From a virus, in IMG/VR virus record IMGVR_UViG_3300046751_000325, positions 1-28,006 of that record: a stretch of DNA of 28,006 nucleotides, one strand, 5' to 3'. Below the pieces are notes generated by a model. That model ran no database searches. It had not been told where the DNA came from and was given only the letters and a program-made list of their open reading frames with translations. This document shows positions 5,701 to 24,678 of the stretch, in pieces; the first letter of the stretch is position 1; every line of letters begins with the position of its first letter. A program made the position numbers and the translations under genes.

Positions 5701-6344
5701 GTGCCCATTGTGTAGAGCGCTGCGTTGCCTATTTCAGTTGCTGGGTCTTCACCCTCGCTAATCTCAGTAAGCGCCTCAGTAAGCGTTATGCTGCCATCTA
5801 CGATCGCTGCATCCAGAGCGCCTATCTTAGAAAGATCTTTAGCGGTGAGGTCTTTGCCTCTCATTAATTGCCTTGCGCGTGCAGCTTGCCTAAGACCAGA
5901 TGTAGAGCCTAAAGCATTAAGACCTTTGCCAAGGTGCAAAGAAGCCGCAACGCCACCGTAAGGAATGGCAATAGACGCATGAAGGCTAGGATCAGTAAGA
6001 AATAAATTAAGACCAGTAGAGCGATTTAATACGCTATAGTTATCTCTACGTTTTTGTATGAACTCTAGCGCAGAAGTAAAGTTATCTTGAGAGCCAATCC
6101 CAAACAAGCGAAGATAGCGAGCATCCTCCTCATTAAGTCCCTGCTTTTCTATTATTGTTTCAACACGATCAATTGACTCTGGATCATAGGTTGAAGCTCT
6201 TGAATAAAAATTTAACTGGTTCTTTATTGGGTTAAACAGTCTTCCATATTGAGCATTCCCCGTTTGCCCAAGTGTAGGCACTGTAGATTGCACTGGCTGT
6301 CTACCAACATTAAACGGCTCTGCTTCTGGAACAACTATCTTCAT
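2775..6344 (-). CDS. Large internal virion / ejection protein, T7 gp16-like by position
   Basis: This 1189-residue protein is the last and largest of three consecutive internal-protein genes downstream of the tail-tube genes, the place of T7 gene 16 (1318 residues). Its ATG overlaps the stop of the upstream gene by four bases (ATGA). A Gly/Ala-rich hydrophobic stretch at about residues 206-230 could insert in a membrane. Residues 450-620 are charged and helical, and the last 250 residues hold further hydrophobic helices. Such proteins are injected to form a channel for DNA across the host envelope. I see no lytic transglycosylase motif near the N-terminus, which T7 gp16 has. The assignment rests on size, order and general character, not on residue-level homology. 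Confidence 0.75.
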   Translation of the reverse strand: MKIVVPEAEPFNVGRQPVQSTVPTLGQTGNAQYGRLFNPIKNQLNFYSRASTYDPESIDRVETIIEKQGLNEEDARYLRLFGIGSQDNFTSALEFIQKRRDNYSVLNRSTGLNLFLTDPSLHASIAIPYGGVAASLHLGKGLNALGSTSGLRQAARARQLMRGKDLTAKDLSKIGALDAAIVDGSITLTEALTEISEGEDPATEIGNAALYTMGTAAVGGLLGFGIGTALNRPISAQARQATFGRKYKEYLNSVSDEPAKRGEDLSFTGEWFTNSWFMKAIPTPLRVTIQDKKLPDWAKMDMLQIGGDNGMPYAMNQLGKSVGSSAFTESARRQGDWFKALDVINQNYREVSPRGSAEFFNVPVGEYVERVRRKLGKDSFAPDEWYNHVGRLMVDEVPYEKMTPQEAASVQAARSFFEQYGKELEEVGLINPKDLFEDNYLKNVGRQMELQSVTKSIVEQNKRWMRPQQDRLSTDIEKINNKLKQLNKTSTTRGLTNKQVTFKSDLEKELVMKQDLVGRFDDAFDKIQNAKSIDELALLYKELDLTADMRSALQDLAKAMDETKSRINNAMDMMDEMPSVKSPNNYLMRIFNRRKIESDREGLKNILMNWFRENPQIIVKGDDKLFKKQELATDPVSLERRANETIDNILGETDEDAVDAIFTGFGRSGPLVSRRLNIPNHLIKDYIVTDIKEVMIAYTNRVGPRLEYHKRFRDPETNQIMPLEGRIDYYRSRLIKDGVDEATINKFIKNFVAIYDQVVGTTLKRPDAIDTKVADFLRTATSWTFLGGSGLAAVGDAASLFMDHELKAIGKSVLGTMDDISLKASKRELNLAGEALEIVRGITHLRYMESLTNDVFSKTIPDKLNNAFYIMNGLAPVTVAIKTFDGLLRGHTIIDSAIKLGTGKASNFEKEFLARYNITPKIAKRIADSPYEKSQGGLFLPNTEGWTDEAAVTAFRNALSSGVMNRVIMGTPADKPIVMSGIAYIPEHLAKMLPFKTAVDPRVKGYRRVESGLLALPFTFYSYTMGALSKITANHASGAVRNRLSHVAVAMGLGYMIVNARTPSWAWKDMDVEDKIMRSFDFSGLAAIYSDMVYRGIAMASEMGLENNFPIQPKFQAPPDKIGALVSLGGAPADWSYEVLSSIGQMLSGDVQDGAKGLIRMTPLIETMATGDIIKDTAKDLTGYLPNRQ

Positions 6345-12550: not shown

Positions 12551-13128
12551 TAGCTACGCCTTTGACTTATAAACCTCGAAGTGTTTAGCTTTTTAGTTGT
12601 TTGCTGTTGTGAATCAAGTCTACGCGCTCTCATCAAGAACTGTTCACCCTTTTGCTCCATCAAAGAAGCTAGCTGGGCATCACGCGCAACAGAAATAGAA
12701 AGCATAGCAGCTACTTGAAACTCTACAGCCATTGTAAAGTAAGGAGGCCAGTAAGCCTCATCCGCTCTAAATATATAATCAGCTACAAGAACCTCAGTCT
12801 CGTTGGCATCGCAATAAACCTTATCTCCATAAGTATCATAGATAATAGGTTCATCGTTTATTGTTACAGCACTTAGCATAATAAGATCAGACGGAAGCTG
12901 GTAAGCTGCATCGTATCGACCAGTTGGTGCCGCTACAAGCCTACTAATCTGCTGTTGATTGGTAGCAAAGCGCCATCTTGAGTTAGTTAGCGCAGCGCGA
13001 GCAACGTCTTCATATACAGCGTCAACCACATCAGCTTCAGCCGTTCCCTCATCAAACGATTGGATAGGAGAGCCACCCATTAGTATAGAGGCGCGGGAGC
13101 ATATTTTGATTGCTGTATTTGCTGGCAT
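12550..13128 (-). CDS. Tail tubular protein A / gatekeeper, T7 gp11-like
   Basis: This 192-residue protein (T7 gp11 has 196) opens with AIKICSRASILMGGSPIQSF and continues with a segment (WRFATNQQQISRL) typical of podovirus adaptor proteins that join portal to nozzle. The family forms a twelve-fold ring below the portal. It is the first gene after the capsid gene and is separated from it by a hairpin. I see no good ribosome-binding site before its ATG: the nearest purine run (AGGAGG) is part of, or next to, the hairpin stem 20 bases or more upstream. Translation may therefore depend on coupling or on folding of that hairpin. Confidence 0.85.
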   Translation of the reverse strand: MPANTAIKICSRASILMGGSPIQSFDEGTAEADVVDAVYEDVARAALTNSRWRFATNQQQISRLVAAPTGRYDAAYQLPSDLIMLSAVTINDEPIIYDTYGDKVYCDANETEVLVADYIFRADEAYWPPYFTMAVEFQVAAMLSISVARDAQLASLMEQKGEQFLMRARRLDSQQQTTKKLNTSRFISQRRS

Positions 13129-21269: not shown

Positions 21270-21641
21270 CTAGCCCAGATCAATTGAAACTTTGATGTCC
21301 CCCGCCACTTGAACCTGTGAACGATCAATAGGTTTATACCCAGCACGATCCAACAAATCCTTACTAGCCTCAAGCTGAACATACTCAGACTTAGCGTTCT
21401 GAGACAGCCTACGCACTGTGTTAACAGCTACGGTAGCACTAAGTCCAAACTCCTCATTCATCCGCTGCATCATGTACTGCTGCACATGGGCTGTCTTGAG
21501 TGCTTTGTAAGCTGAGACGTATCCAGACTTCCCTTCAGCGTACCCAGCTTCGATAGCAGCTTTAGCTGCAGGCAGCCCTTTTGATACCATTATATCCACC
21601 AGCGCAGCCTGTCTATCAGTTAACTTCTTAGCAGGAACCAT
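21270..21641 (-). CDS. terS: Terminase small subunit
   Basis: This 123-residue protein has the start typical of small terminases: LTDRQAALVDIMVSKGLPAA then KAAIEAGY, a helix-turn-helix at residues 8-34 that binds the packaging site. A helical central part (ALKTAHVQQYMMQRMNEEFG) forms the oligomer ring, and the C-terminus would contact terL. It is the first leftward gene. AAGGA lies five bases before the ATG but is inside the arm of a long inverted repeat (see 21644-21732). It is separated from terL by a 2.3-kb mini-gene cassette, whereas the two are usually adjacent. Confidence 0.85.
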   Translation of the reverse strand: MVPAKKLTDRQAALVDIMVSKGLPAAKAAIEAGYAEGKSGYVSAYKALKTAHVQQYMMQRMNEEFGLSATVAVNTVRRLSQNAKSEYVQLEASKDLLDRAGYKPIDRSQVQVAGDIKVSIDLG

Positions 21642-21643
21642 AT

Positions 21644-21732
21644 CAATCCTTCTTCTTAGCAGTGACTAACATCTAGCTAACTGCTGTCCTCTGTGTTTGC
21701 TAGATGCAGTAAGCTATCATTAAGAAGGATTG
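21644..21732 (-). promoter_or_regulatory. Symmetric nested inverted repeat masking the terS ribosome site
   Basis: Outer arms CAATCCTTCTT (21644-21654) and AAGAAGGATTG (21722-21732) are perfect 11-bp complements. Inner arms CATCTAGC (21670-21677) and GCTAGATG (21699-21706) are perfect 8-bp complements. The segments between outer and inner arms are both 15 bp and the loop is 21 bp, so the layout is 11-15-8-21-8-15-11. In the leftward mRNA the downstream outer arm contains the terS AAGGA. A competing stem, AGCAGT with ACTGCT (21658-21663 and 21680-21685), cannot coexist with the inner stem. Confidence 0.6.
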
Positions 21733-21765
21733 TTTAAACACTGGGGCTTATATCTCATTCACTAG

Positions 21766-21788
21766 CCCCCCTCTCCCTCTCTCCCCCC
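21766..21788. repeat. 23-bp pure polypyrimidine/polypurine tract
   Basis: Only C and T occur on the plus strand, with six C at each end and CCC in the middle, giving near mirror symmetry. On the minus strand it is a G-rich purine run that would lie in the terS leader. Triplex or quadruplex DNA is possible, as is slippage during sequencing. Confidence 0.6.
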
Positions 21789-21812
21789 ATTACGACACTA
21801 TTTCTACATTGC

Positions 21813-21842
21813 TTGTCAATAGTGACGTAACGTAACTATACT
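21813..21842 (+). promoter_or_regulatory. Likely early rightward promoter
   Basis: TTGTCA (21813-21818) and TATACT (21837-21842) each match the bacterial housekeeping consensus at five of six positions, with an 18-bp spacer. The spacer holds GTGACGTAACGTAAC, one arm of an inverted repeat, as expected of an operator. Transcription would start near 21849, before the structured region. On the other strand a perfect TTGACA (21819-21814) overlaps this -35 box and points towards terS, with a poor -10 (CGTAAT, 19-bp spacer). Confidence 0.5.
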
Positions 21843-21858
21843 AATTACCCTACGTCAC
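21822..21858. repeat. Inverted repeat GTGACGTA-N21-TACGTCAC
   Basis: Perfect 8-bp arms at 21822-21829 and 21851-21858 flank a 21-bp spacer containing the -10 box. The left arm starts a 17-mer repeated with one mismatch at 23579-23595. The core TGACGT recurs twice more at 22279-22297. It may be an operator or an origin-binding site. Confidence 0.55.
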
Positions 21859-21951
21859 ACTGCATTTCTCTACTTGACAGGGCGTCCGAGCGGGCTGTCG
21901 TAAACCAAGCCCTATTGGTCTTGGCCCTTGCGGGCTTCCATCCCTGACGCA

Positions 21952-21986
21952 TTGGCGTATCACGGCATTGAGCCATGATTCGCCAA
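21952..21986 (+). other. 13-bp hairpin with two symmetric mismatches
   Basis: The pairing is TTGGCG, then ATCA, then GGC on the 5' side, with GCC, TGAT and CGCCAA on the 3' side. The blocks are separated by single T-T and C-A mismatches opposite one another, and the loop is ATTGA. Thirteen pairs in perfect register are very unlikely by chance. Confidence 0.7.
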
Positions 21987-22043
21987 GCAGGGTTCAAAGG
22001 CCACCCTTGCAACCCGCTAGCCTACCCCAGCGTACCGATAGAC

Positions 22044-22070
22044 ATTCAGCCCCTAAGATGTGGGCTGAAT
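22044..22070 (+). other. Perfect 9-bp hairpin followed by a short T-run
   Basis: ATTCAGCCC and GGGCTGAAT enclose a nine-base loop. AGTCTTTTAG follows, so weak intrinsic termination on the plus strand is possible. Alternatively it is one domain of the structured RNA. Confidence 0.65.
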
Positions 22071-22131
22071 AGTCTTTTAGTTGCGACTCAGTTGAGGGGG
22101 TCGCTCGCACGCTCCCGCAAAGTGCTTCGAC

Positions 22132-22160
22132 TAAACGATCATCGGAATGATGACCGTTTA
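22132..22160 (+). other. 10-bp hairpin with a 2x2 internal loop, then C7 and T5
   Basis: TAAACG and CATC pair with GATG and CGTTTA around a GGAAT loop, with AT opposite AC as an internal loop. A run of C and then CTGTTTTTC follows. Its 5' arm also can pair with 22076-22081 (TTTAGT/ACTAAA), an alternative fold. Confidence 0.6.
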
Positions 22161-22202
22161 CCCCCCCTGTTTTTCTATGTGGGTTCGACTAATCTAAGGA
22201 TA

Positions 22203-22247
22203 GATCAATCTCTGAGCGGGTGTAATTCCCCGCACAGGTGATTGATC
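22203..22247 (+). other. Long interrupted hairpin (8 + 3 + 5 bp)
   Basis: GATCAATC (22203-22210) pairs with GATTGATC (22240-22247). CTG pairs with CAG, and GCGGG (22216-22220) with CCCGC (22229-22233), around an eight-base loop. Only small internal loops separate the blocks. Confidence 0.65.
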
Positions 22248-22270
22248 ATGACGCCTCAAGGCTCTGCACA

Positions 22271-22305
22271 ATGACGCTACGTCAATCAAGTTGACGTTGC
22301 ATCAT
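22271..22305 (+). other. Imperfect 15-bp inverted repeat with two TGACGT cores
   Basis: The arms at 22271-22285 and 22291-22305 are complementary at 13 of 15 positions, including a perfect inner ACGTCAA/TTGACGT around TCAAG. The TGACGT core is shared with the repeats at 21822-21858 and 23579-23595, so this may be a protein-binding site as well as a hairpin. Confidence 0.6.
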
Positions 22306-22411
22306 TGCTGGCCCAGCAAAGCTGGCCTTCGGGCCTTGACCCGCCACCTAAGATTAGCCGTGACCACAGGCGTTCTTTTGAACAATAACCTACTAACTTA
22401 TGGAGAAGACA

Positions 22412-22615
22412 ATGATTCAAGACTCACAAAACGATATGCTAATAGATGACCTTCATAACATTAGCCAATGGGCCTGCTGCCGTGGACATGCAGTGCTAGA
22501 ACAAGAGTTAGATAAGATAATAACAACATTAGAAGAACTTCGGGCGTCGACTAGCCGTCAAAGTCAAGACTTCCCAGCAAAGCTGGCGCTGCGCGATCTT
22601 GACTTGGACAACTAG
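22412..22615 (+). CDS. 67-residue protein, first rightward gene, unknown function
   Basis: The ATG at 22412 has GGAG at a good distance, so it is preferred over the ATG at 22400, whose own upstream sequence has no ribosome site. The product begins MIQDSQNDMLIDDLHNISQW, has two Cys (ACCRGH) and one long acidic helix (LEQELDKIITTLEELRAS). It is the first gene after the divergence region and so is probably expressed first, a place where phages often keep host-takeover or anti-defence proteins. That is inference from position. Its 3' end contains a nested hairpin. No family is recognised. Confidence 0.65.
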   Translation: MIQDSQNDMLIDDLHNISQWACCRGHAVLEQELDKIITTLEELRASTSRQSQDFPAKLALRDLDLDN

Positions 22616-22620
22616 ACGGC
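22554..22620 (+). repeat. Nested inverted repeats around the stop codon of the first rightward gene
   Basis: From outside in: GCCGTC (22554-22559) with GACGGC (22615-22620), AAGTCAAG (22561-22568) with CTTGACTT (22598-22605), and CCAGC (22574-22578) with GCTGG (22582-22586) around AAA. All three are perfect. The innermost 15-mer CCCAGCAAAGCTGGC also occurs at 22312-22326 in the structured region. Confidence 0.55.
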
Positions 22621-22676
22621 GCTTCCGATTAGTGTCGAAAGACAATAACACAACTTAATGAGAAAGAGAGAACGAC

Positions 22677-23294
22677 ATGGATAAGAAACTAACTAAGATG
22701 ATTAACTCAGATCTAAAAGCAGCTTACACAGGTGAGGACAACGTAACACTAAGCCAAGCGGTAGCGCGGCTATGTGCAGAGTTCTATGACCCACGCATGG
22801 TATTTGATAACGACAAAGGCTCGTACACAGAAGAGAATATCCACAAGTGGGAACAGATGTTCTTTTTGCAAAACATCGCAAACCACTTATGGGCTAAGAT
22901 GTACGATACCCGCATGGACAAGAAGGGCTACGTCAAAGGCGTTGCTATCAAGCTAGATCGTGCGACACAGCACTTGAAGAACGTTACTGCTAAGCACGAT
23001 GGCACAGAGATTTCTCTCAACGCCATTGACCAAGCCAACGACTGGCAAGACAGGCTACAAGACAAGCTCGCAATATACGAAGAGCAATACCACATGTTTG
23101 CCGACATGATGGAGGTAGCAACAGGCATGGCACACAAGCCATACCAACCATGGACAACAGCGATTGATGAGGCACCAGCCGCATCAAGCGACAAAGAAGA
23201 TGCCTTGGCAGCAAAGCTGGCAGAGAAAGGCATCGATCTCAAGCCAGTCAGTGTTGCAAACACTGATGGCGTAGAGACACAGGAGGTGGCGTAA
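22677..23294 (+). CDS. 205-residue protein of unknown function
   Basis: The product starts MDKKLTKMINSDLKAAYTGE. It is mainly helical, with aromatic and Met-rich stretches (WEQMFFLQNIANHLWAKMY, YEEQYHMFADMMEVATGMAH) and a flexible Ala/Pro/Asp-rich tail from about residue 160. There are no Cys and no enzyme motif that I can see. An AGAGAG ribosome site precedes the ATG. A strong terminator starts four bases after the stop, so this gene and the 67-residue gene form one short early transcript. This is the longest unknown protein in the rightward set. Confidence 0.82.
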   Translation: MDKKLTKMINSDLKAAYTGEDNVTLSQAVARLCAEFYDPRMVFDNDKGSYTEENIHKWEQMFFLQNIANHLWAKMYDTRMDKKGYVKGVAIKLDRATQHLKNVTAKHDGTEISLNAIDQANDWQDRLQDKLAIYEEQYHMFADMMEVATGMAHKPYQPWTTAIDEAPAASSDKEDALAAKLAEKGIDLKPVSVANTDGVETQEVA

Positions 23295-23844: not shown

Positions 23845-24678
23845 ATGAAACATTTCTCAATGAACGACTTCAACTTTCCAGTTGAGCAACAACCAATCCA
23901 CGATCAGCTTGGCAATATCATTGCTGGTCATCAAGCTGTTGTGCGTACCGACACCGATCAGGTGTTGGGCGTACACGGATCACGTTACAAAATCGTATCG
24001 CACGATGATGTAGTCAACTCAGTTCTCGACGGAATCAAGACAGCAGATCTATCAGACGATTATGAAGTAAGCGTCGATGTACTTGAAGACGGTCGCAAGC
24101 TAAGAGGTGAGATACTATTTAATAATCTTACTGTTGAACCAGCAGTCGGTGACTACGTTAAGTTTAGAGTCAGCTTCTTCAATAGCTACGATGCATCTTG
24201 GTCCTTCTCTCAGCAAGCCAATGGCTTACGGCTATGGTGCCTCAATGGTTGCACTACACCCGACACAGTGGCGCGCAGTAGATACAAGCACACTGCATCG
24301 ATCAACGTCGAAGGTGCAGCAGCTAAGGTAATCAATGGCCTTGAGCACTTTCAGTCTCGCAAAGATGTTTGGCAAAGCTGGATGCACACCAAGCTAGAGC
24401 AACCACAGATCGAAAACTTCTTTAAGAAGACTGTCTGCAAAGCATTCACACGTCAGCAGTCAGTCACCAAGACCAACGAAAAGCAACTAGAAAATTTGCT
24501 AAGCATCTGGAACAACGAGCGCAGCAGCCTCGGCTCTAATAAGTGGGCACTGTACAACTGCCTTACTTACTGGGCTACACACACACAGGATCTGCGTAAG
24601 CCAGAGATTGCTAAGTACAATCGTGAACTACAGATTGCCAGCGCAATGAAATCAAAACAATGGATGGAGATGAGCTAA
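23845..24678 (+). CDS. DUF932-type phage/plasmid protein
   Basis: This 277-residue protein matches the DUF932 family (phage/plasmid-like proteins) from memory: an N-terminal segment with VLGVHGSRYKIVSHDDVVN, a middle holding RVSFFNSYDASWSFS and LWCLNGCTT, a region with the usual RSRYKHTAS, and the C-terminal SNKWALYNCLTYWATH. Members are common in early regions of phages and on plasmids; their biochemical role is not established, although some links to DNA metabolism and defence evasion have been suggested. The start follows GGAG. The stop overlaps the next ATG (TAATG). Confidence 0.87.
   Translation: MKHFSMNDFNFPVEQQPIHDQLGNIIAGHQAVVRTDTDQVLGVHGSRYKIVSHDDVVNSVLDGIKTADLSDDYEVSVDVLEDGRKLRGEILFNNLTVEPAVGDYVKFRVSFFNSYDASWSFSQQANGLRLWCLNGCTTPDTVARSRYKHTASINVEGAAAKVINGLEHFQSRKDVWQSWMHTKLEQPQIENFFKKTVCKAFTRQQSVTKTNEKQLENLLSIWNNERSSLGSNKWALYNCLTYWATHTQDLRKPEIAKYNRELQIASAMKSKQWMEMS

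Follow-up and report, generated by a model that had tools for sequence, protein, structure and literature searches.

Why a phage should maintain, between its late and early genes, a non-coding gap crowded with hairpins is the question raised by the window (that is, the whole 28,006-nt stretch of DNA that was analyzed). A first-pass annotation had proposed that this gap encodes a large structured RNA. Here it is argued that the gap, which lies where the early and late genes of a marine podovirus-like phage diverge, is on balance probably a DNA-level block of exchangeable modules that fold as single strands, the first of which (termed here D1) would serve as a start point for priming. The landmarks on either side of these modules are as follows (strand is given where assigned):

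21270-21641, minus strand: small terminase gene (terS), the first late gene, separated from the early operon by the gap
21642-22399: the gap between terS (minus strand) and the early operon (plus strand)
21766-21788, plus strand: conserved pyrimidine tract CCCCCCTCTCCCTCTCTCCCCCC, between terS and the leader, a marker of this phage group
21813-21842, plus strand: sigma-70-like early promoter TTGTCA-18-TATACT, found by motif scan and kept in relatives with a different leader
23845-24678, plus strand: DUF932 gene of the early operon (PF06067, E = 5.8e-17 on its homologue at L202:7188-8018)

The 23-nt tract is invariant or almost so among relatives and was found in identical form in at least 120 stretches in a scan of viral contigs; beside terS, it is a candidate for a pac, triplex or operator role. 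The promoter-like site that had been noted upstream of the hairpins is indeed present and conserved in relatives, but it does not exceed chance expectation (one found versus 1.2 expected in the scan), so that the case for it comes from its conservation rather than from its scan frequency. A palindromic, operator-like sequence, GTGACGTnACGTnAC at 21822-21858, overlaps this promoter and is largely palindromic in the relatives as well.

Within the gap, an independent scan recovered the hairpins at 21952-21986, 22044-22070, 22132-22160 and 22269-22307. Four hairpins with a score of at least 8 occur there, whereas 200 dinucleotide shuffles gave 0.195 on average and never more than 2, and the gap contains the best 542-nt stretch for hairpins in the whole window. 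Minimum free energy z-scores are -6.8 (plus strand) and -8.7 (minus strand) with RNA parameters and -8.3 and -9.3, respectively, with DNA parameters; no tRNA was found in the gap. The structural elements are:

21882-21950, minus strand: module D1, a three-way junction (model R1, covariation in 51 sequences, pair counts in 208 copies)
21952-21986, minus strand: hairpin, 13 of 15 pairs, with mismatches T.T and C.A on the plus strand (A.A and G.T on the minus strand)
22044-22070: hairpin, 9 bp, perfect
22132-22160, minus strand: hairpin, 11 of 12 pairs, the sole mismatch being A.C on the plus strand (G.T on the minus strand)
22178-22199: 5' arm of a long-range helix, 77% complementary to 22347-22368
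22203-22247: stem module, altered in the relative L206
22269-22307, minus strand: hairpin, 15 of 17 pairs, with mismatches C.A and T.T on the plus strand
22312-22335: two small neighboring hairpins, CCAGCAAAGCTGG and GGCC-TTCG-GGCC
22347-22368: 3' arm of the long-range helix, pairing with 22178-22199

Most of these had been described correctly in the first-pass annotation: the 13 pairs with two mismatches at 21952-21986 and the perfect 9-bp hairpin were found unchanged, and the TTCG tetraloop was located, within GGCC-TTCG-GGCC, at 22324-22335. The hairpin at 22132-22160 lies where it had been placed, but it has one A.C mismatch instead of a 2x2 loop, and that described as 13 of 15 pairs at 22271-22305 exists but reaches further, to 22269-22307. 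Absent from that earlier list were the long-range pairing, which encloses the last (3') hairpins, and the best conserved element of the gap, namely D1.

Written in the plus orientation, the D1 helices are P1 (GCGTC/GACGC), P2 (CCAAG/CTTGG) and P3 (CCC/GGG), with an extension of P1 that consists of GGG..CCC plus a U-A and an N-N' pair; the conserved junctions are TCGTRAA and CTTC. Covariation, which the first-pass annotation had proposed to look for, is very strong in this module: across an alignment of 51 copies, pairing holds in 95.4% of cells, double changes number 104 versus 32.6 +/- 4.1 after shuffling, and the covariation score is 0.392 versus 0.141 +/- 0.012 for shuffled and 0.088 for the best slid control, where both kinds of control leave the relatedness of the copies in place. 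Among 208 distinct copies, the junction pair N-N' likewise covaries (G-C 87, C-G 67, T-A 38 and A-T 3). A covariance model (R1), whose training set includes the window but leaves out plasmids F and R100 and the microvirus MH572438, matches the window at 21862-21950 (70.9 bits, E = 4e-19). The window module thus has both junctions of the D1 family together with covarying P1, P2 and P3 and, by this comparative evidence, belongs to a large family, so far uncatalogued, of three-way-junction elements of roughly 70-100 nt.

D1 was first recognized across diverse leaders and then by a degenerate two-junction pattern, which occurs in viral contigs (at least 119 stretches) and in prokaryote genome contigs (at least 120 stretches, against about 7 expected by chance given uniform base composition). 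A blastn search with the 69-nt D1 consensus matched 3,423 PLSDB plasmids, of which 2,590 are conjugative (R100 among them), and one microvirus. Outside its training set, R1 finds two copies in F, at 58093-58172 and 63481-63560 (E = 1.9e-20 and 8e-18), one in R100 at 33317-33396, upstream of ssb (E = 1.4e-20), and one in microvirus MH572438 (E = 3e-14). The ssDNA phages identified as carrying D1 are three: MH572438, L281 (with Phage_F) and L223 (with a GPA-type rolling-circle Rep). In bacterial genomes, ArdC accounts for 13 of 103 neighboring proteins, and ArdA, RadC, SSB, DUF932 and integrase also occur; D1 lies on the same strand as the next downstream gene in a ratio of 80:27. On plasmids and islands, members of the family are found close to ardC, ardA or ssb. 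Some genomes carry several copies (at least four in Bradyrhizobium nitroreducens, L353, L360, L376 and L385, and others on contig 3 of Raoultella planticola, L370 and L387), which suggests multiple islands. A terminator-like hairpin and a T run come after D1 in some bacterial copies (L393, L413, L414, L421), and a D1 transcript may exist there.

None of the known classes that were compared accounts for D1. The statement that the block matches no known class stands: the Rfam check found neither GOLLD, ROOL nor any other family in the window at gathering thresholds or at E up to 10, beyond three chance matches far below gathering. GOLLD and ROOL are likewise large, ornate structures of phages, from which the window differs by this lack of an Rfam match. 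Searches of the window, of its relatives and of both F and R100 gave no Rfam match at D1 either, whereas the positive control, RF01695 on P1 c4, worked. That family, C4 antisense RNA, had been suspected from its three-helix layout and shares with D1 an association with phages and prophages; its model finds P1 c4 and not D1, however, and its consensus differs. The STAXI motif (RF01728) occurs near SSB, anti-restriction and integrase genes and possibly functions as ssDNA (PMC2864571). It thus resembles D1 in being structured, in its neighbors and in the suggested single-stranded state, but it consists of tandem pseudoknots, and in the window, F and R100 there was no Rfam match between it and D1. 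D1, a seemingly folded-DNA element that occurs in thousands of conjugative plasmids, F included, and in many bacterial genomes, appears to lack an entry among RNA and DNA motifs.

Whether such an element acts as RNA or as DNA can be judged from its mismatches. Wobble pairs, which are expected in RNA, are nearly missing from D1, and this deficit points to DNA. The helices contain 9 G.T and 15 A.C in 1248 cells, a wobble share of 0.7% versus 7.2% in tRNAs (9/1248 versus 26/362 pairs in 17 tRNAs from the same loci; Fisher, 6e-11), and a second count gave 2 in 711 cells; the rate of G.U pairs usual for an RNA is thus not reached on the transcribed strand. The strand bias extends beyond D1. The minus strand of the window folds better than the plus strand with RNA and DNA parameters alike, three window hairpins carry A.C mismatches on the plus strand that are G.T on the minus strand, and, across 119 leaders read on the plus strand, mismatches in A.C-tolerant stems outnumber those in G.T-tolerant stems (256 versus 187).

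The orientation of D1 elsewhere leads to the same strand. In all three of the ssDNA phages (n = 3 for this argument), D1 is antisense to the genes, and the viral strand therefore carries its reverse complement. The D1 copies of F and R100 have the same sense as the leading genes. Since these genes are expressed with the entering strand as template (PMC11541004), that strand likewise has the reverse complement. The folding strand of D1 is thus probably the minus strand.

These observations bear on the possibility that the transcript from 21813-21842 folds as a structured 5' UTR, which would regulate the early genes or serve as a small RNA. In line with it, the conserved promoter-like site is directed into the block, D1 mostly has the same sense as the downstream gene in genomes, terminator-like sequences follow some bacterial copies, and the gap has both a TTCG hairpin and a low RNA z-score on the plus strand. 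Yet G.U is nearly missing from the covarying helices, three window hairpins have A.C mismatches on the plus strand, it is the minus rather than the promoter-proximal plus strand that folds better, and the D1 copies of ssDNA phages are antisense to the genes. An RNA leader is accordingly considered unlikely. Thus the claim of a structured non-coding block is upheld, the block being real and under selection and its first module covarying, but its interpretation as a new plus-strand phage RNA is supported in part only, DNA being favored. If the promoter is real, D1 lies within the early 5' UTR transcript, and an added RNA role may exist.

A further property of the block, its modularity, emerges from its relatives. 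A TerL search matched hundreds of marine contigs, the nearest isolate being Pelagibacter phage EXVC031P Hodr (65%), whose early operon encodes ArdC, SSB, a possible replication initiator, RecE and RusA; D1 was found neither in Hodr nor in phage P1. (The Hodr early gene at L446:2574-3455, annotated as hypothetical, encodes an ArdC-type anti-restriction protein, with PF08401 and PF18818.) The closest relatives keep the terS-side segment 21642-21880, with its invariant pyrimidine tract and early promoter; past about 21880 their leaders are different ones, also rich in hairpins, which run up to the ribosome site of another early gene, and the tract scan revealed many such leaders in several clusters. 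By contrast, phages with the same early gene as the window (22677-23294) retain most of the window leader at 92% or better, with single modules swapped. In these relatives the first module is exchanged for a different one of unchanged P1/P1.1/P2/P3 layout. In L206 a different and longer sequence, which brings an extra second hairpin, replaces 22203-22247, with the outer stem rebuilt from GATCAATC/GATTGATC to GATTGATCT/AGATCAATC; in L209, L204 and L102 a longer stem stands in place of the terminal part of the hairpin at 22269-22307.

The leader has no direct similarity to phage records, and 21951-22399 matches no plasmid, these remaining ~440 nt being matched by the nearest relatives only; for the hairpins outside D1, it is the strand bias and the module swapping that suggest a DNA-level role. 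When a second widespread module was sought, starting from D1b of L149, only 8 stretches were obtained. The commonest alternative leader (cluster 0, among L001-L197) is also uncatalogued and rich in hairpins; it combines a TTCGCAA...TTGCGAA hairpin with a CGCGAGGnTGGTCCTCGCG motif across 44 contigs and has no meaningful match in plasmids.

Since the block adjoins terS, and since the minus strand folds better, it could be thought to act as a pac-type site or, transcribed as the minus strand, as a leader RNA for the late operon. This is very improbable, however: between close relatives it is the terS-side segment 21642-21880 that is conserved and the hairpin block that is swapped, D1 also occurs in plasmids and ssDNA phages that have no terminase, and the wobble deficit argues against a minus-strand RNA as well.

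The plasmid copies of D1 lie in leaders of established importance. In F, ssb lies downstream of Frpo2, and ygeA and ygeB lie downstream of Frpo1, these two Frpo regions being 92% identical, and both leaders are needed for early expression of the leading genes (PMC9849209); Frpo elements are the single-strand promoters of anti-defense islands (PMC11541004). One F copy of D1 is upstream of ssb, and that at 63481-63560 is upstream of hypothetical and DUF932 genes at 64-65 kb. Judged by gene order, these leaders correspond to Frpo2 and Frpo1, respectively, and the DUF932 family thus lies downstream of the Frpo1 leader in the F annotation, as it does downstream of the window leader. The leaders of ColIb-P9 share sequence with F from the point right after D1 onwards, but have another module ahead of that sequence; hence the upstream module D1 is exchangeable in plasmids, as it is in these phages. 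(In ColIb-P9, L451, the different hairpin module occupies the D1 position at 5800-5890 and 12830-12920, upstream of ssb and downstream of ardA.)

It is conceivable, though doubtful, that the folded minus strand of the window recruits host RNA polymerase to the early genes as a single-stranded promoter of the Frpo type, and this is the main alternative to priming within the DNA-level interpretation. The window leader, the Frpo1 and Frpo2 leaders and the R100 ssb leader all have D1 as upstream module and are hairpin-rich, non-coding and modular, their downstream gene families overlap (DUF932, SSB and anti-restriction genes), and the leaders that contain D1 are those needed for early leading-gene expression (PMC9849209). 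On the other hand, the window is a dsDNA phage and not a conjugative plasmid, it has an ordinary duplex promoter, and it aligns significantly with the F Frpo leaders over the D1 stretch only, being unlike the remainder of the F leader, the AT-rich hairpin included. Moreover, D1 is GC-rich, inspection of its stem by eye revealed no -35/-10 boxes, and ColIb-P9 leaders lack D1.

Under the preferred interpretation, that of D1 as a priming start, the minus strand (i.e., the reverse complement of D1) would fold when single-stranded; a host primosome or primase, or possibly RNA polymerase, would start a primer at the folded D1; and the complementary strand would grow rightwards from D1 into the early genes, so that the block may serve, with host enzymes, as part of a replication origin or as a lagging-strand start. 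A role for host enzymes is suggested by the early genes visible, which comprise recombination genes (for RusA and for a RecE/YqaJ exonuclease) together with a DUF932 gene and one for an SSB-like protein, with no polymerase or primase seen among them when the early operon is read beyond the window to the end of locus L202. The cumulative GC-skew minimum at 22-23 kb fits an origin, though it is confounded with gene direction. Primer start, single-strand promoter and origin are all candidate functions. The DNA-level, strand-specific secondary structure of ssi sites is found here, in the wobble deficit and the strand bias. Such sites are reportedly the subject of papers by Nomura (1991) and Masai (1997). 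No paper found in the open literature describes D1, parts of which may lie within mapped ssi fragments.

Against a single-strand start count the double-stranded genome of this phage and the complementary-strand origins of phiX174 and G4, which have no D1 match. The latter, the G4 DnaG site and the phiX174 primosome assembly site, resemble D1 in being non-coding hairpins on a single viral strand, and some microviruses carry D1; as kin of D1 they were rejected, the model finding no match in G4 and none in the phiX174 F-G intergenic region. A broader and more tentative suggestion is that D1 is a so far undescribed entry site on ssDNA, of wide phylogenetic range, for a host replication or transcription protein in conjugative plasmids (where it lies beside Frpo), ssDNA phages and polymerase-less dsDNA phages alike, and that it is recombined, cassette-like, with other modules that share its layout.

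Together with the same gene families (DUF932 and SSB-like, and ArdC in a relative), the presence of D1 at the head of a dsDNA-phage early operon connects the early regions of phages with the leading regions of plasmids through their cis elements. It makes testable both the content of Frpo leaders other than the promoter hairpin and the way in which host replication is recruited by phages with no visible polymerase. Lastly, a second strong structure lies outside the gap, at 22544-22622, at the end of a short ORF (22400-22615); its 35-nt arms are 74% complementary, it includes an exact copy of the CCCAGCAAAGCTGGC hairpin of 22312-22326, and a similar structure is present at locus L090.
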